5,487 nucleotides of DNA from the NCBI GenBank assembly GCA_021786915.1, contig JAJYMP010000604.1, positions 1-5,487 of the forward strand, in the 5' to 3' direction. The stretch comes from Chloroflexota bacterium. GTDB lineage: Bacteria > Chloroflexota > Limnocylindria > Limnocylindrales > CSP1-4. Below, piece after piece: positions 1 through 5,487 of the stretch. A program made the translations under genes and the position numbers. Position 1 is the stretch's first letter; every line of letters begins with the position of its first letter. The notes beneath the pieces were generated by a model, which ran no database searches, had not been told where the DNA came from, and was given only the letters and a program-made list of their open reading frames with translations.

Positions 1-443
1 AGCCCGAGGCGGTTCATCTTGTAATAGAGGGTGCTGCGCGGTATATTCAGCAGCCTGGCCGCAATGGTCCTGTTCCCTCCAGCTTCCCGCAGGGCCCGGA
101 AAATGGCCTCCCGCTCGGCCCGCTCGATCCAGGCCAGGAGGACCGGCCGCCAGCGGCGCCCATGGAGGGTCTTCTCGAGGTGCGCCGCCGGGCAGAGCAC
201 GACGAGGTTGTCGGCCGTGCTCCGGCTGCGTCGGCCGAGCGCGCCGGAGGCCCGCACGTGGTCCAGCTCGAGCCGGCCGAAGCAGTCGTGCGGGATCGCC
301 AAGCGCCCGAAGACGCAGCCTCCGTCGCGCGCGCGCACGTGGTCGCGCACGCTCGGCGGGATCGGATCCGGAGGGAGGGCGCCTCGCCGGTCCGGAGGGA
401 GGGCGCCTCGCCGGCGTCGAGGCGACCGATAGCGGCGCAGCAC
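1..443 (-). CDS. HNH endonuclease running into a Fis-type helix-turn-helix (3' end outside window)
   Basis: Partial gene, open to the window edge. Numbering from the GTG at 443-441, residues 28-106 match the phage HNH nuclease family: the core reads LELDHVRASGALG, then DNLVVLCPAAHLEKT. The HNH residues would be H62, N79 and H88, with C43, C54 and C84 as likely zinc or structural cysteines. Such enzymes nick or cut DNA and are often encoded near phage terminases, where they can assist packaging. Residues about 107-147 instead match the DNA-binding domain of Fis/NtrC regulators (AGGNRTIAARLLNIPRSTLY). This pairing is unusual, and the second part uses AT-richer codons (ATA, AAT, TAT, ATT) than the first, so it may be a true fusion or a recombination junction. 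The GTG start is 16 bases after the upstream nuclease stop with no clear ribosome binding site, so the start is uncertain. The N-terminus is arginine-rich and carries a duplicated octapeptide. The HNH assignment is firm; the fusion is less certain. Confidence 0.8.
   Translation of the reverse strand, partial: MLRRYRSPRRRRGALPPDRRGALPPDPIPPSVRDHVRARDGGCVFGRLAIPHDCFGRLELDHVRASGALGRRSRSTADNLVVLCPAAHLEKTLHGRRWRPVLLAWIERAEREAIFRALREAGGNRTIAARLLNIPRSTLYYKMNRLG
367..414. repeat. Exact 24-bp tandem duplication (two copies)
   Basis: Positions 367-390 and 391-414 are identical base for base. The unit is a multiple of three, so on the minus strand it duplicates the octapeptide RRGALPPD (residues 11-18 and 19-26 of the HNH protein) without breaking the frame. 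It lies before the conserved HNH domain, in what is probably a flexible N-terminal tail. The lack of any divergence suggests a recent slippage event. Confidence 0.95.
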
Positions 444-459
444 GGCCCGGGACGGCCGT

Positions 460-1380
460 TCAGGCAGCCGCGATCGTCGGGCCCGGGGCGAGGGGCGCCC
501 CGATCACCGACTTGGCGGGCCCCTGATCCCAGGCGAACAGGCGACGCGCGTCCAGGAAGGCCGCGACCGCGGCACGGTCGACCACGACCGGATGGAGCCG
601 GGCGCCCTCGGGCCGCACGTGCAGGATCCCGAACCGGGTCGCGGGCGGCACGGGATACTGGCGGGGATCGCCGGGCCGGCCGATGAACTGCGCCCGGGCG
701 AGGCCCGCCAGCTGCAGCGCGCTCTCCGGATACACGCCCGCGCCGGTCTTGTAATCGAGGAGCCAGACCTCGCCGTCGATCTCGACGAAGGCGTCCGCGG
801 TGCCGCCGTACTCGTAACGCTCCGAGCACACCATCGCCTCGACCGCCAGAAACCGCGGGCGGAAGGGCTCGAGGAAGTCGCGCCGGTAGGCCTCGAGGTA
901 GGGGCGCACCGCCGCGTCGACGGCCACCGGATCGCCGCGGCCCAGCCCCTCGGCCACCGCATGGACCCGCGAGCCCAGGTCGGCCGCCTCGTCGCGCCGG
1001 TAGTCGGGGATCCGCTTCAGCCAGTCGATCGCCGCCTGCGGACCGCCCGACGCCACCATGCGCGCGAGGACGTCGACGTTGCGCACCGCGCAGGCGGCCG
1101 TCTCCCGCTTCGCCCAGCCCACCAGCCCCGGCTTGTCCTTGATGGCGAGGATGGTCGTGACCGACGGGAACCACGGCCCGCCGTTCCAGCGGTAGCGGTG
1201 GTGGGCGTCCCGGACGAGGCCGACGCCGTCAAGGGGCGCGGCCGTGGTGGACCGTGAGGCCTCCGTGCTGCTGACGCTGTCGCTGACAACTGCACGGTGC
1301 AAGGCGAGTTCGCTTGGTCCAGTACCTGCGTGTGGTGTGTCGCTGCGGTCCAGCTGTGCCGCACCGATCCTCGTGGTCAT
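460..1380 (-). CDS. PD-(D/E)XK nuclease, RecB/Cas4-like exonuclease family
   Basis: A 306-residue protein with the ordered motifs of the RecB-type PD-(D/E)XK superfamily. These are GSRVHAVAEGL (G136, H140), a glutamate at E181, YGGTADAFVEID (D196), VWLLDYKTG (D209 and K211) and ALQLA (Q223). An N-terminal segment (WNGGPWFPSVTTIL, then DKPGLVGWA, residues 65-90) is typical of phage-encoded members, which process DNA ends in recombination or replication. The tyrosine that often follows the motif glutamine (QxxxY) is L227 here. The first 50 or so residues are serine/threonine-rich, less biased in codon third positions and probably not conserved. ATG at 1380-1378 is used because it is the only in-frame ATG near a good promoter and fits a leaderless message; there is no Shine-Dalgarno sequence. 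It is divergent from the XRE gene and followed at 16 bases by the HNH gene, suggesting a nuclease operon under XRE control. The family call is firm; the biological role is inferred. Confidence 0.85.
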   Translation of the reverse strand: MTTRIGAAQLDRSDTPHAGTGPSELALHRAVVSDSVSSTEASRSTTAAPLDGVGLVRDAHHRYRWNGGPWFPSVTTILAIKDKPGLVGWAKRETAACAVRNVDVLARMVASGGPQAAIDWLKRIPDYRRDEAADLGSRVHAVAEGLGRGDPVAVDAAVRPYLEAYRRDFLEPFRPRFLAVEAMVCSERYEYGGTADAFVEIDGEVWLLDYKTGAGVYPESALQLAGLARAQFIGRPGDPRQYPVPPATRFGILHVRPEGARLHPVVVDRAAVAAFLDARRLFAWDQGPAKSVIGAPLAPGPTIAAA

Positions 1381-1451: not shown

Positions 1452-1907
1452 ATGTCCGCGATGAGCGAGACCGCGGCCGCCTGGTTCCGGCGGGCCCGAC
1501 TCCGGGCCGGCTTCCGCAGTCAGGCGCAGCTCGCCCGCACGCTCGGGCTTGCCCGGGCCGCGATCGCGAACTGGGAGTCGGAGTCGGTGCGGGGGCGACC
1601 GTCACGCTCGATCGTTCCCCGTCTGGCCCAGCTCCTCGGCGTGTCTCCCGCTGAGCTCGCGGCGCGCTTTGGGATCGACCTCGAGCGCCCGCTCGCGACA
1701 TCCGCGGATGCCCAACCTGCGCTGCTCGAGGCCATTGAGGACGCCGTCGCGCGCGGGGTCGCACGTGGCCTGCGGGAGGTCTTCGGCGCGCCAGGGGAGG
1801 CAGGGGAGTTGAAGCCCGCGCGGGTCGGTGCTGCGGTGCTGCCTGCATCCGATACCGGTGAGGACGAGTCCGGTCCGTTCGAGGAGCCCGACCGTCCCAG
1901 GGAGTAG
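1452..1907 (+). CDS. XRE-family helix-turn-helix transcriptional regulator (likely repressor)
   Basis: A 151-residue protein. Residues 10-74 form a lambda-repressor/Cro-type five-helix DNA-binding domain: the helix-turn-helix is SQAQLARTLGL (23-33) followed by the recognition helix ARAAIANWESE (34-44), and LLGVSPAELAARFGI closes the domain. Residues 90-111 (LLEAIEDAVARGVARGLREV) look like an amphipathic helix, perhaps for dimerisation. The tail is acidic and disordered, and there is no peptidase-type cleavage domain as in large CI repressors. The gene is divergent from the nuclease operon, and paired palindromes lie between them, the standard layout of a phage control switch. Two starts are possible, ATG 1452 or ATG 1461; neither has a well-spaced ribosome binding site (AGAGG at 1431-1435 is 16 bases away). 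It is convergent with the terminase operon. Family firm; role as element repressor inferred from position. Confidence 0.85.
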   Translation: MSAMSETAAAWFRRARLRAGFRSQAQLARTLGLARAAIANWESESVRGRPSRSIVPRLAQLLGVSPAELAARFGIDLERPLATSADAQPALLEAIEDAVARGVARGLREVFGAPGEAGELKPARVGAAVLPASDTGEDESGPFEEPDRPRE

Positions 1908-2175: not shown

Positions 2176-4008
2176 TCAGTCTCCCGCGTGCTCCCGCGGC
2201 TCCGGTCCGGGGTCCTCGAACGACTCGGGCGACTTGGTGCCGCACTTTGGGCAGCGGCGCCCGCGCTCCCACATGAACAGGTTGGCGCACTTCTCGCAGG
2301 TCCACATGCCCCACGGGTTGAGGCCGCTCGACGGCGGTGGCTCCATGACGGCGCTGAGCGCTTGCCCCGCCGATCCGGGGGCGTTGTAGGACGGCTCCAT
2401 CGACATGTGGCCGCCGTAGGACGCCAGTTCGGGGTTCTCGAACGTGTCCGGCGCCCGGGTGCCGCACTGCGGGCAGGGGCGGCCTTTCTCCCACGAGAAC
2501 ATCCGGCCGCACTTGGTGCAGGTCCACATGTTGTACTGCCAGCTGATGGACTCGGTTGACGCACCGGCCAGCTTCACCGCGCCTCCCAGTGCGTCGATCT
2601 GGTCGTCATGCGCTCCGGCCGGGAAGTACAGCGCCTCGGCGGCGAAGTCGATCCACCACGGGGCATCCATCGGCCGGAGCACCTTGCCGCCCGCGGCACG
2701 CGCTTCGAGCAGGCGGCCCCGGGCGACCTTGTCCCGGTCGCCGCGACCGATCTTGTCGGGCACGATCGGCAGCATCGTGCGGCGCAGCGCCTCCTGCACC
2801 GCGGCGGCCTGATAGGCCACCTCCTCGATGCCCACCGCCTGCAGCCCGGCCGCCGACCACGCGGTGCCCATCGACTCGATCTCGGCCAGCGTGCGGTTGA
2901 AGTTCCAGTGGCCCTTGCGACGCTCCAGCAGGTAGACGTTGTTGCCGCCGTCCACCCCGATCGTCCAGCCCACCGTGTAGTCCGCCGAGGCGCGCTCGCT
3001 GATGGCGAGATCCCAGTACTGGAAGATCGACAGGCCCCATGGCGCCTTACCGAAGGTCGGCCAGCGATCGGGGAAGAACATCTGCGTCGCCGCCGGGCGC
3101 GGCTCGTTCAGGAACTCCTGCGGCCAGCCGAGCAGGTCGGTCTCGTCCATCTGTGCCTTGCGCGCGGCCAGCGCTTCGAGCGACCACATCTCGGGCCAGA
3201 TCGGCGAGCCATCCGGGCGGAAGACGGACTTCACGACGTCCACCACGTGCCAGCCCGAGTCGGGTCGGAGCCAGTACGAGTAGACATCGTCGAAATGCTT
3301 TCTGGTCCCGGTTCCAATGAGTTGGCCACCCGGCGCCAGCACCGGCTCGACCTCGCGGGCCCACCACTCGCGGGTGCCCTGCCGCACGGTGTCGGAGTCG
3401 GTCGCCTCCTTCGTCTCCAAGTCGTCCACGACCAGCAGATCGCAGTGGTAGCCGGTGATCTGCCCGCCCCGCCCGACGCTGAACACGCTCACGTCCTTGC
3501 CGCTGATCCCGTGCTCACCTTCTCGCGCGTCGGAGAGGACGATCTGGTGCTCGGTCCACGTGTCGCCGCGGAACGGGAGGATCGCTTTCGTCTCCGGGTC
3601 GGTCGGGGCGTACCGGTCGATCAGCTTCGCGTTGGACTCCAGCTCGTACTTGATCTCGCCCAGAAAGTGCTTGGCCAGCGCGTCGGTCTGGCTGATGATG
3701 CCGACCCGCAGGTGGTGGTCCTCACAGATGCGGCGCAGCACGTAGGTCAGTACGCACGACGTCTTGGCGTGCTGGCGCGGGCCCATGATGAAGATCCGCT
3801 TCAGGCCCGAGTCCATGGCCTCGTACCAGACGCGGTGGAACCACGGGGTGGGCAGACGGAAGCGGCGGAACTGCTCGGCGAACTCGGCCGTGGTCGCCGG
3901 GCGCAGCACCGCCGGTCGGCGGACACGGTCGAGCCGGGCCGCCCGCGCCGAGCGCGCCCGCGCGACCCGCGCCTCCAGTCGCGCCAGCCGGCTCCGGAGT
4001 CGCGACAC
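2176..4008 (-). CDS. terL: Phage terminase large subunit (TerL) with two C-terminal zinc ribbons
   Basis: The 610-residue DNA-packaging motor. The N-terminal ATPase has a Walker A GPRQHAKTS (76-84), Walker B DLLVVDDLE (190-198; D195, D196 and catalytic E198) and coupling motif GTGT (232-235). The C-terminal RNase H-like nuclease has D333 (QYWDLAISE), E395/E396 (GIEEVAYQ) and HDDQIDA (467-473), completing the acidic triad. The canonical protein would end near residue 485. About 125 further residues carry two near-identical zinc ribbons, C497/C500/C512/C515 and C571/C574/C586/C589, each CxxC-x11-CxxC, joined by a proline/serine-rich linker. This extension is not usual for TerL. The first 30 residues are arginine-rich and coil-like (SRLRSRLARLEARVARAR). 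The GTG start directly follows the TerS TAG with no gap and no strong ribosome binding site, implying translational coupling; the two genes are in the same frame. No portal gene follows. The enzyme appears intact; ribbon function is unknown. Confidence 0.95.
   Translation of the reverse strand: MSRLRSRLARLEARVARARSARAARLDRVRRPAVLRPATTAEFAEQFRRFRLPTPWFHRVWYEAMDSGLKRIFIMGPRQHAKTSCVLTYVLRRICEDHHLRVGIISQTDALAKHFLGEIKYELESNAKLIDRYAPTDPETKAILPFRGDTWTEHQIVLSDAREGEHGISGKDVSVFSVGRGGQITGYHCDLLVVDDLETKEATDSDTVRQGTREWWAREVEPVLAPGGQLIGTGTRKHFDDVYSYWLRPDSGWHVVDVVKSVFRPDGSPIWPEMWSLEALAARKAQMDETDLLGWPQEFLNEPRPAATQMFFPDRWPTFGKAPWGLSIFQYWDLAISERASADYTVGWTIGVDGGNNVYLLERRKGHWNFNRTLAEIESMGTAWSAAGLQAVGIEEVAYQAAAVQEALRRTMLPIVPDKIGRGDRDKVARGRLLEARAAGGKVLRPMDAPWWIDFAAEALYFPAGAHDDQIDALGGAVKLAGASTESISWQYNMWTCTKCGRMFSWEKGRPCPQCGTRAPDTFENPELASYGGHMSMEPSYNAPGSAGQALSAVMEPPPSSGLNPWGMWTCEKCANLFMWERGRRCPKCGTKSPESFEDPGPEPREHAGD
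2209..2307 (-). repeat. Zinc-ribbon repeat unit 2 in TerL
   Basis: It encodes TerL residues 568-600, beginning MWTCEKC and ending PKCGTKSPESFEDP. It shares the framework MWTC-KC---F-WE-GR-CP-CGT--P--FE-P with unit 1, starting 222 bp (74 codons) from it. By hand alignment 2237-2308 matches 2459-2530 at about 55 of 72 bases, so the units arose by internal duplication and then diverged. Confidence 0.85.
2431..2529 (-). repeat. Zinc-ribbon repeat unit 1 in TerL
   Basis: It encodes TerL residues 494-526, beginning MWTCTKC and ending PQCGTRAPDTFENP. The four cysteines (C497, C500, C512, C515) have exactly the spacing of unit 2. It follows immediately after the end of the nuclease domain. Confidence 0.85.
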
Positions 4009-4389
4009 CTAACGCTCGGGTTGGAGCTCGGCGACGGCCTGCTCCAGGGCCGCGAGCCGCTCCTCGAGCTCGACTTCGAGGCGCCACTTCCCTGCCAGCT
4101 CGAAGATCGTCCGCGCCGCTCCAAGCCGGACAGCGGGCGGCGCTACGCGCATGAGCTCCAGGAGGTGGGCGGTCGCCTCGGTGGTGGTGCCCACCAACAC
4201 CCGCGCGATCCCTGCCACGTGCTCGGTTTGCGCCGCCTTGAGCCGGGCTCGGAACGTCGGATCGGCCAGGCGACGCCGGACGGTCCGCTCGCTGACTCCG
4301 GCGCGGAGCGCCGCGTGCGAGATGGTGGCACCGCTCATCAACGCCGCGACAATCAGCGCATCGGAACGCTGCCGCCCGCTACCGGCCAC
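4009..4389 (-). CDS. terS: Phage terminase small subunit (TerS), helix-turn-helix type
   Basis: A 126-residue protein from the GTG at 4389-4387. Residues 5-47 form a homeodomain-like helix-turn-helix (RQRSDALIVAALMSGATI, then AGVSERTVRRRLADPTFR) that would recognise the viral DNA. The middle is helical (EATAHLLELMRV, then AARTIFELAGKWR) and the end is a coiled coil (LEVELEERLAALEQAVAELQ, 104-123) suited to oligomerisation. Length and architecture match small terminase subunits. A longer reading to 4572 is possible, but its first 60 residues are proline/serine-rich and uncoding-like, whereas GTG 4389 has GGAGA seven bases upstream. The stop TAG abuts the terL GTG, so the two are coupled. The start overlaps the end of a small upstream ORF by 11 bases. 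The assignment rests on fold and position, because TerS sequences are poorly conserved. Confidence 0.8.
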   Translation of the reverse strand: MAGSGRQRSDALIVAALMSGATISHAALRAGVSERTVRRRLADPTFRARLKAAQTEHVAGIARVLVGTTTEATAHLLELMRVAPPAVRLGAARTIFELAGKWRLEVELEERLAALEQAVAELQPER

Positions 4390-4591
4390 GAGGCGTTCTC
4401 CGGGCCTGCACGGCGGCGCAGCGGCCGGAGGTCCGGGCGGTGGAAACAGCCCGCCCCGCGATGCCGGCGCCGACGGCCTCGAAGACGAAAAACGCCGCCC
4501 CGGCGGACCCGACGGCCCAGCGCTGGACGGCAGCCACATGAACGCCAACAACCCGCTCGGCAGCGGGATCACTCGTCAGGGATGGTCGCAC
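4379..4591 (-). CDS. Possible small protein upstream of and overlapping terS
   Basis: Unrecognised 70-residue ORF starting at GTG 4591-4589 and ending with TAG at 4381-4379, inside the terS start region. A perfect Shine-Dalgarno core AGGAGG (4600-4595) precedes it, though only three bases away, shorter than ideal. The peptide has an alanine/valine/glycine-rich, mildly hydrophobic middle (WAVGSAGAAFFVFEAVGAGI), possibly a weak membrane segment, and a basic arginine-rich end. Third codon positions are mostly G or C. The 11-base overlap with terS would allow translational coupling, so it could act as a leader peptide or be a real phage small protein. A longer start at 4666 exists but ignores the AGGAGG. 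No family recognised. Confidence 0.35.
   Translation of the reverse strand: MRPSLTSDPAAERVVGVHVAAVQRWAVGSAGAAFFVFEAVGAGIAGRAVSTARTSGRCAAVQARRTPRGR
4397..4401 (-). promoter_or_regulatory. Ribosome binding site that sets the TerS start
   Basis: GGAGA on the minus strand, seven bases before GTG 4389. It favours the shorter TerS of 126 residues over the long reading from 4572, which has no such site. Confidence 0.6.
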
Positions 4592-4958: not shown

Positions 4959-5348
4959 CTACGGCAGGATCGATCCCGCGTACGGCTCGACGGTCGGAAT
5001 ACTCCCGTGTGCAGTTTCGGTCACGGCGGCCTCGAGCTCGCGCCGCATGGCGTCGGGGACCTCGGGTGCCGTCCCCTCCTCGAAGTAGACGAGGGCGCGC
5101 AGGAACGCGGCGGCCGGGAACTCGAAGAGCGGCTCGAAGATCGTGGTCGCGTACCCGATGATGTCGGGGAGCCGGTGCTCCTTCCGCAGCAGAGTCGCGA
5201 TGTCGACGTAGTCCCGCCACTCCGACCCATCGAGCACCGCCTTCGCCTTGGTGCCGGCGAGATCGAAGATCAGAAAGGAGGTCCGTGCCGCCACGGGAGG
5301 CCCCGAAACCGCCCACTCCACGCCACGGAGAGTTCGGGTACCCTCCAC
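4959..5348 (-). CDS. AbiEii/AbiGii-like nucleotidyltransferase, C-terminal part only (probable 5'-truncated remnant)
   Basis: A 129-residue ORF from GTG 5348-5346. Residues 25-108 resemble the C-terminal half of AbiEii/AbiGii nucleotidyltransferase toxins: FLIFDLAGTKAKAVLD (K34), EWRDYVDIATLL (D47, D49), a helical stretch and the FLRALVYFEE element, then PDAMRRELEAAV. In this family the N-terminal half holds the nucleotidyltransferase active site (GxS and two aspartates), and full proteins are usually about twice this length. That half is missing, because the divergent zinc-ribbon gene begins just 24 bases upstream of the ORF start. The protein is therefore probably inactive unless it works as a stand-alone domain. 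The first 24 residues are not recognisable and the start has no ribosome binding site. No AbiEi-like antitoxin is visible. Family call moderate, truncation inferred from length and the lost motif. Confidence 0.5.
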   Translation of the reverse strand: MEGTRTLRGVEWAVSGPPVAARTSFLIFDLAGTKAKAVLDGSEWRDYVDIATLLRKEHRLPDIIGYATTIFEPLFEFPAAAFLRALVYFEEGTAPEVPDAMRRELEAAVTETAHGSIPTVEPYAGSILP

Positions 5349-5356
5349 GCACGCAT

Positions 5357-5366
5357 AAGGATGAGG
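5357..5366 (+). promoter_or_regulatory. Ribosome binding site of the zinc-ribbon gene
   Basis: Purine-rich AAGGATGAGG ending six bases before GTG 5373. It supports that GTG, giving a protein starting MICSNCGTEN, over the in-frame ATG at 5361, which sits inside this site and has only a touching AAGG upstream. Confidence 0.45.
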
Positions 5367-5372
5367 CGGGCG

Positions 5373-5487
5373 GTGATCTGTTCGAACTGCGGCACGGAGA
5401 ACCCGGTCGGCGCGAAGTTCTGCACCGAGTGCGCGTCCCGGCTCGCCCAGGTCTGCCCCGCCTGCGGCACCCCCAATCCGGCGTCGG
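5373..5487 (+). CDS. Double zinc-ribbon protein, N-terminus only (probably a cyclase/ATPase-type signalling protein)
   Basis: The gene runs off the right edge; 38 codons are visible. They encode ICSNCGTENPVGAKFCTECA, a first CxxC...CxxC zinc ribbon, followed by the start of a second one (CPACGTPNP). This tandem ribbon opens many large high-GC soil bacterial proteins in which a class III adenylate/guanylate cyclase domain, an ATPase domain and TPR repeats follow. Ribbons alone also occur in membrane and regulatory proteins, so the downstream domains are an inference. GTG 5373 is preferred for its ribosome binding site and because family members usually start directly at the first cysteine motif; ATG 5361 would add four residues. 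It is divergent from the AbiEii-like fragment and is probably a chromosomal gene rather than part of the phage module. Confidence 0.7.
   Translation, partial: MICSNCGTENPVGAKFCTECASRLAQVCPACGTPNPAS

Follow-up and report, generated by a model that had tools for sequence, protein, structure and literature searches.

The C-terminal zinc ribbon that we describe here on the large subunit of phage terminases (TerL) follows the portal and not the TerL that carries it. The ribbon is present twice on the TerL encoded in the window, by which we mean the whole stretch of 5487 bp that was analysed. As the module lies in the position of the docking segment of lambda TerL and follows one portal family, docking explains the observations best. 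In this reading, to which we give a slightly better than even chance, the ribbon at the TerL C-terminus serves as a transferable adaptor, by which the packaging ATPase docks to one portal type.

The window TerL (610 aa) is encoded at 2176..4008 on the minus strand. It matches the PHROG family phrog_38 (terminase large subunit, a profile without curated cut-off) over residues 8–490 with an E-value of 3e-83. It is also a member of TIGR01630 (44.4 bits, above the cut-off of 41.65), and it lies outside the equivalog NF033889 of T7-type TerLs (68.2 bits against a cut-off of 150). An ATPase and an RNase H-like nuclease fill residues 1–489 (2542..4008, minus strand), with the motif HDDQID at residues 467–472. 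Since the phrog_38 match ends at residue 490, the remainder is a tail beyond an apparently complete ATPase and nuclease, as the initial annotation had described it. By sequence profile, the nearest solved relatives are T7-type TerLs (8dgc, 4bij), where the significant match covers only the ATPase. A Foldseek search with the model of the window TerL returned the TerLs of PhiV-1, HK97 and T4 as best matches (E 2e-19 to 2e-12), which we take as the fold of the solved TerLs at TM-scores of only 0.29–0.36.

The tail consists of two ribbon modules and a linker. Ribbon 1 comprises residues 490–526 (2431..2541, minus strand; WQYNMWTCTKC...CPQC...FENP) and is the homologue of the one ribbon that is usual in the family. 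It is followed by a linker of 39 residues (2314..2430, minus strand) and by ribbon 2 at residues 566–600 (2209..2313, minus strand; WGMWTCEKC...CPKC...FEDP), which is a tandem copy of ribbon 1. The cysteines at residues 497/500/512/515 and 571/574/586/589 form two CxxC-x11-CxxC motifs that are 74 codons apart. Over the 33 codons that start at MWTC, 75 of 99 bases (76%) and 20 of 33 residues are identical between the copies. This confirms the two ribbons, their spacing and the DNA identity of about three quarters that had been read from the sequence, and the interval given for them, 2209–2529, indeed corresponds to residues 494–600. Chance likeness of the two copies is ruled out, as none of 200 codon-shuffled versions of the gene contained a codon-aligned 99-base pair with at least 75 matches (highest: 59).

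In the AlphaFold2 model, the blocks of ribbon 1 (residues 491–520) have a mean pLDDT of 85–95, with strands at 494–496 and 503–505. Two CxxC knuckles with strands in a confident model place ribbon 1 in the zinc ribbon fold class. The blocks of ribbon 2 (571–590) reach a pLDDT of 46–54 and the linker is mostly below 50 (residues 531–572), in a region where the alignment depth is almost nil. The best Pfam matches of the ribbon are PF17032 (Zn_ribbon_15, E 1e-5) and PF23458 (DUF7130, E 5e-4); both are under their curated cut-offs, with PF17032 at 26.6 bits against a gathering score of 28.9. Judging from the sequence, the ribbon cysteines would bind zinc.

TerL is preceded by a gene for a probable terminase small subunit (TerS; 187 aa, 4009..4572, minus strand; phrog_2538, E 1.5e-5). 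Further genes in the window include an ORF at 3–443 (minus strand) with a stretch that looks HNH-like by eye and then a Fis-type HTH (PF02954, E 2e-13), a phage-type exonuclease at 460–1380 (minus strand; phrog_298, E 2e-37) and, beside TerL on the opposite strand, an HTH regulator at 1452–1907 (plus strand). On the other side, 4959–5348 (minus strand) has a weak AbiEii-like match (E 0.003), and at the edge, 5361–5487 (plus strand), an ORF starts that has several CxxC motifs and resembles a double zinc ribbon by eye. No portal gene is present within the 5487 bp. We predict that the portal of the window phage belongs to the phrog_2662 subgroup, extrapolating from the viral records G693 and G694 described below.

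We then asked how common the ribbon is among the relatives of the window TerL. We found 84 relatives among 5.8 billion proteins, and a second search with their alignment extended the set to 90. The clade tree was inferred from 68 TerL cores that were cut before the tail, leaving out 22 of the 90 sequences (8 intein-bearing, 14 short or partial); it is rooted at the midpoint, and some long branches are uncertain. All TerLs with ribbon fall into a single supported group (99/96); of its 53 rows, 51 have the ribbon, compared to 0 of 15 rows outside the group. The 51 include two variants, P0022, where Asp replaces the second Cys, and P0060, which has CxC; the two rows without ribbon are P0063 and P0041. 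Among 16 further distant TerL tails from fetched loci, where L018 and L019 represent the same tail, no ribbon was found. In 54 of 58 first ribbons, the distance from the first residue of the HDD motif to the first Cys is exactly 30 residues. In the clade alignment of 47 rows, each of the four Cys and Arg510 is conserved in 90% or more of the rows; the cysteine counts over all 61 ribbons follow from the pattern used in the search and say nothing on conservation.

A single ribbon is thus the rule in the TerL clade of the window. The initial annotation had named TerLs with one or two ribbons, forming a clade, as support, and such a clade exists. A recent fusion with a neighbouring gene, which it had considered, is rejected, since the close homologues have the tail and the single ribbon is found clade-wide. 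The doubling is a local event, whereas a single ribbon is standard in this family. The sister TerLs of the window (P0002 and P0004) have a single ribbon. Both window copies have a Met three residues before the first Cys, which is found in no other of the 61 ribbons. As this Met is shared by both copies and absent from the other ribbons, the second ribbon is most simply explained by a tandem duplication within the window's lineage. Two ribbons are also found in P0061, a distant clade member, and second modules also occur in GRG-type TerLs.

Some members of the clade have additional features. After the single ribbon, a further small domain of two kinds is present, one apparently helical and one alpha/beta-looking by eye; one set of carriers comprises P0018, P0019, P0022, P0026, P0033, P0036 and P0042, the other P0044, P0045, P0049, P0050, P0051 and P0059. 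Three examples of these domains gave no significant match in Pfam. Domains that we take to be intein or homing-endonuclease domains, going by the names of their Pfam accessions, are found in P0006, P0037, P0045, P0046, P0053, P0065, P0073 and P0085. The ribbonless P0041 (L002:947-2900, MAG G002) has a lone in-frame TGA at the junction of nuclease and ribbon, at a position where the family has Trp. The frame beyond the TGA contains an intact-looking ribbon, and the truncated protein is known from 5 contigs; the TGA may represent a truncation or readthrough. In a Dormibacterota MAG, host-type genes come directly after TerL (L001:4248-6390 and L001:6413-11899), namely mannose-phosphate isomerase, a phosphomannomutase-like gene, MreC and a PBP dimerisation gene; this MAG gave no match to the G694 portal.

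Further searches for the window's TerL type added little. A viral scan with the window TerL alone found nothing, and searches of 301, 400 and 291 genomes with a TerL profile detected, beyond the known loci, distant TerLs only. A DNA pattern of HDD and ribbon at fixed spacing matched 4 stretches with one TerL, which is the known L005 record. In the same scan, we observed small viral proteins that consist mostly of CxxC repeats (L062:8264-9055, plus strand; L063, minus strand).

Next, we considered the portal. A large phrog_2662 portal is common to the viral records G693 and G694 and to the MAG G003. For the window's own TerL type, TerL and portal are present in the same record only in G693 and G694, and in G003 they lie on separate contigs. 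Scanning viral contigs with the two portals of G693 and G694 resulted in 20 records with several TerL types: the window's TerL (type i), TerLs with a GRG P-loop (type ii), TerLs with GPHGLGK (type iii) and two others with PPRHGKS (G710) and GGAAGGGKS (G711). The best PHROG of the scanned TerLs is phrog_38, phrog_979 or phrog_2. C-terminal four-Cys ribbons sit on five TerL types over three PHROG families. In this first portal scan, TerL was identified in 12 distinct phages, and 11 of these have the ribbon; the ribbon of G710 is a CxC variant, and the ribbonless case is G709, whose portal is 35% identical. No TerL was found in 6 of the 20 records (G697, G698, G699, G701, G704 and G712). As this set was partly found by a profile that included the ribbon, we ran less biased tests.

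The portals share a core, whereas their C-terminal parts vary, with open frames from 635 to 1552 aa (leaving aside the cut L093). The giant portals of the G693/G694 pair (L058:3013-6843, plus strand, 1276 aa; L059:1518-5195, minus strand, 1225 aa) carry extra domains, including a ParB-like segment and a four-Cys motif. Their C-terminal domains presumably resemble phage effectors, and the next gene in G694 presumably an ADP-ribosyltransferase. A segment at about residues 920–950 of the G694 portal (RDDxGxW-like) recurs in other large ORFs of G694, G693 and G003. The portal's own four-Cys motif was considered as a conserved partner of the ribbon and rejected, as it is present in only 2 of 20 portal loci. 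An AlphaFold2 model of the portal core had a mean pLDDT of only 62 and was not used. PHROG and Pfam left most of the scanned neighbouring genes unexplained. Among the scanned portals, phrog_2662 was assigned in 4 of 4 ribbon phages and phrog_113 in 5 of 5 ribbonless phages. A search of 400 genomes of one phylum gave two distant portal matches only. With tblastn, three portals gave 9 to 11 matches each against 50 697 records of a phage collection, at no more than 35% identity. Studies of the isolates in this collection are thus unlikely to have come across the ribbon.

To sample loci starting from TerL, we searched viral contigs with ribbon-free TerL cores and used 33 type-ii loci and the best 80 of 358 type-iii loci. 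The loci were scored by a portal profile and the tail pattern, whole records were searched for 26, and portals above 300 bits (lowest: 345.5), which represent one subgroup of phrog_2662, were called close. The resulting 113 loci, which include near-duplicates, comprise 51 with and 62 without ribbon; L204, L205 and L226 have Cys-rich tails with a different motif and place and were scored as ribbonless, and two of these are sisters of L210. A close portal was detected in 35 of the 113 loci (with type iii limited to the best 80 of 358), and all 35 have the ribbon. Within the stretch covered, none of the 62 ribbonless loci has a close portal and 8 have distant ones; as many of these loci are fragments, a portal beyond them could be missed. 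When 20 ribbonless records were checked over their whole length, 17 had no portal of the family and 3 a distant one only. The 51 ribbon loci include 16 that lack a close portal; no portal was seen in 12 of these, which are mostly short fragments, and a distant or cut one in 4. Furthermore, L177 and L178 have a ribbon-like tail yet an intermediate portal (171–238 bits).

The type-iii tree includes 61 cores from the best 80 of 358 loci, 21 with and 40 without ribbon. On this tree, the ribbon needs 5 changes, of which at least 4 are forced by well-supported branches, and it is present in 15 of 15 rows with a close portal. The ribbon has thus changed about five times within type iii, tracking the phrog_2662 portal subgroup. 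For instance, L210, which has the ribbon and a portal of 750 bits, groups as sister (support 100/99) with four TerLs that lack the module; among these sisters, L204, L218 and L221 have distant portals, and L204 and L226 have a different Cys-rich stretch.

The second sample started from the portal. Seven portal cores gave 167 loci, of which the best 80 were used, and TerL was searched with ribbon-free queries. A TerL was found in 44 of these 80 loci and the ribbon pattern in 41 of the 44 (32 of 35 after deduplication); 7 of the 44 were already in the earlier sets (L277, L287, L296, L318, L336, L341 and L186). The exceptions are L331, which has a CxC variant, and L328 and L333, which have no Cys; by eye, the W..VY motifs are kept in L328, L333 and G709. 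We also compared 12 cultured TerLs that are related to types ii, iii, G710 and G711, with identities of up to 53–56% (phiAsp2, TurkishDelight). The CxxC-CxxC ribbon is absent from all 12, and none of their records is among the matches listed for the three portal searches. The cultured SilentRX TerL ends with CxxH...CxxC, and its record is not among the portal-search matches listed. Five cultured phages with distant portals (23–33% identity) have no ribbon either. From these samples, we conclude that ribbon presence follows the portal, not TerL.

We also compared the similarity of the module to that of the portal. A partial Mantel test of module and portal given the TerL core resulted in an r of 0.52 (n=47 deduplicated phages), 0.48 within type iii (n=22) and 0.46 within type ii (n=24). 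For all three, none of 2000 permutations reached r, where the significance is overstated when rows are related. The reverse partial correlations, of module and TerL core, are 0.17 for all phages, 0.17 within type iii and 0.67 within type ii; within type ii, the module thus tracks the TerL core more strongly than the portal. Overall, module similarity follows portal similarity when corrected for TerL similarity.

When a profile of the window-clade ribbon was run on 4691 ORFs, TerLs ranked at the top: G693 (which is in the training clade), G696 (E 7e-6), G700 (E 0.001) and G706 (E 0.008), with G713 (E 0.036) after two small ORFs. At E-values up to 1, the TerLs of G710 and G711 and of the type-ii loci L087 and L088 were not among the matches of the profile. 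We thus regard homology of the module as supported only for types i, iii and part of type ii, which look like one homologous module with the motif W..[AV]YG[VI]..C..C...CP.C.

Besides the portal gene, the ribbon is tracked by at least one other gene. In 49 type-iii loci, a small ORF family between TerL and portal was present in 13 of the 19 loci with ribbon and in none of the 30 without, and each of the 13 members has at least one CxxC (for example L186:3845-4381, L190:4196-4567 and L193:11748-12107, all on the plus strand). The one member that was scanned, from L198, had no match in PHROG. Upstream of TerL, the commonest family at the TerS position is found in 12 ribbon and 14 ribbonless loci of the same 49; its PHROG label is RNase E, so its identity as TerS rests on position. 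One other upstream family is found only in ribbonless type-iii loci (7). TerS as the main partner of the ribbon is thus not favoured, as the commonest upstream family is common to loci with and without ribbon.

If the ribbon is a docking adaptor, each TerL of the motor ring would present it from a place beside the nuclease to the portal's exposed end, in the way of the C-terminus of lambda TerL. In the window phage, each subunit would make a second contact through ribbon 2 on its 39-residue linker. A docking tail of the lambda kind is expected to be present where its portal family is, and this is what we observe across TerL types, with the small ORF as a second gene that tracks too. Of the docking module proposed in the initial annotation, protein docking is retained and narrowed by co-occurrence to the portal or a co-inherited head gene, whereas TerS is not favoured. 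Instead of the portal itself, the ribbon might dock another head component that is inherited with the portal, such as the product of the small intervening ORF, which it might also contact besides the portal, a domain of the large portal extension, a scaffold or protease, or TerS. We consider this unlikely, if less so than the other alternatives. The small CxxC ORF, the extra domains of the 1276-aa and 1225-aa portals and the upstream family confined to 7 ribbonless loci fit with such a component; however, the small ORF was not seen in 6 of the 19 ribbon loci, the C-terminal parts of the portals vary greatly while the core is shared, and the commonest family at the TerS position does not distinguish the loci. 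It is also possible, but rather improbable, that the ribbon is a passenger without portal contact, which marks exchanges where the 3' end of TerL was swapped together with downstream head genes. TerL and portal belong to one gene block and the intervening gene co-varies with the ribbon too. Some of the pattern could stem from head genes that were transferred jointly with the end of TerL. In 30 loci, the gap between TerL and portal ranges from 187 to 7890 bp with a median of about 3.2 kb, and it is at least 1.4 kb in 24 of them. This distance and the conservation of the cysteines in the window clade, together with that of Arg510, argue against a passive passenger, as does the recurrence of the module on several TerL types with little erosion.

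Two further alternatives leave the pairing with the portal family unaccounted for. Zinc ribbons often bind nucleic acid, and the ribbon could grip DNA beside the nuclease or regulate cleavage. The fixed spacing of 30 residues between HDD and the first Cys suggests that the ribbon probably packs on the nuclease, which would fit with such a role; however, the mean net charge over the 61 ribbons is only +1.6, and pairing with a portal family is not predicted, so that we regard this explanation as improbable. Lastly, the ribbon might shield or alter a TerL surface that is recognised by bacterial Avs defence proteins, as the best structural match of the model is the PhiV-1 TerL bound by Avs3 (8dgc). 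This would not explain the pairing with one portal family, and we consider it very improbable.

To our knowledge, lambda TerL (gpA) has no zinc ribbon, and we know of no movement of its C-terminal segment between unrelated TerLs together with a portal family. Within the TIGR01630 family (psiM2_ORF9; phrog_38), to which the window TerL belongs, the ribbon is absent from the cultured psiM100 TerL and from the TerLs of the outgroup. According to the accessible part of PMC4856287, lambda TerL touches the portal vertex with its C-terminus, and Aam42, where the last 5 residues are missing, cannot dock. The window ribbon and the lambda segment are thus both C-terminal and come after the nuclease, and the lambda segment docks the terminase on the portal vertex; a zinc ribbon of gpA is not mentioned in that part of the paper. 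In herpesviruses, the TerS counterpart pUL28/pUL56 carries zinc fingers in the packaging terminase complex (PMC9611059, in part); these zinc motifs are in the TerS-like subunit, whereas the window ribbons are at the end of TerL. A zinc ribbon of TerL is not described in the accessible parts of the literature searched, which include PMC7824862, PMC9611059, PMC9030533, PMC4856287 and PMC9410871 and mostly exclude subscription journals. As far as this literature goes, the tail is thus not a known standard of a described TerL family, in agreement with the initial annotation. While a protein-docking TerL tail is known from lambda, the zinc ribbon that tracks the portal is the new result here.

The docking adaptor reading can be stated more fully, in a form to which we give a little less than an even chance: in tailed phages, a W..[AV]YG and zinc-ribbon module on the TerL end fits one portal family, is gained with that portal, is absent with others and is sometimes doubled, so that the specificity between motor and portal would lie in a small detachable domain and not in the TerL body. 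We know of no general code for motor–portal recognition, which is a long-standing question of packaging. With a small module that comes and goes with the portal while the rest of TerL is shared, there is an interface that can be tested directly, and the ribbon could help to pair TerL and portal genes in metagenomes. If true, this reading would explain how the lineages of TerL and portal are reshuffled.
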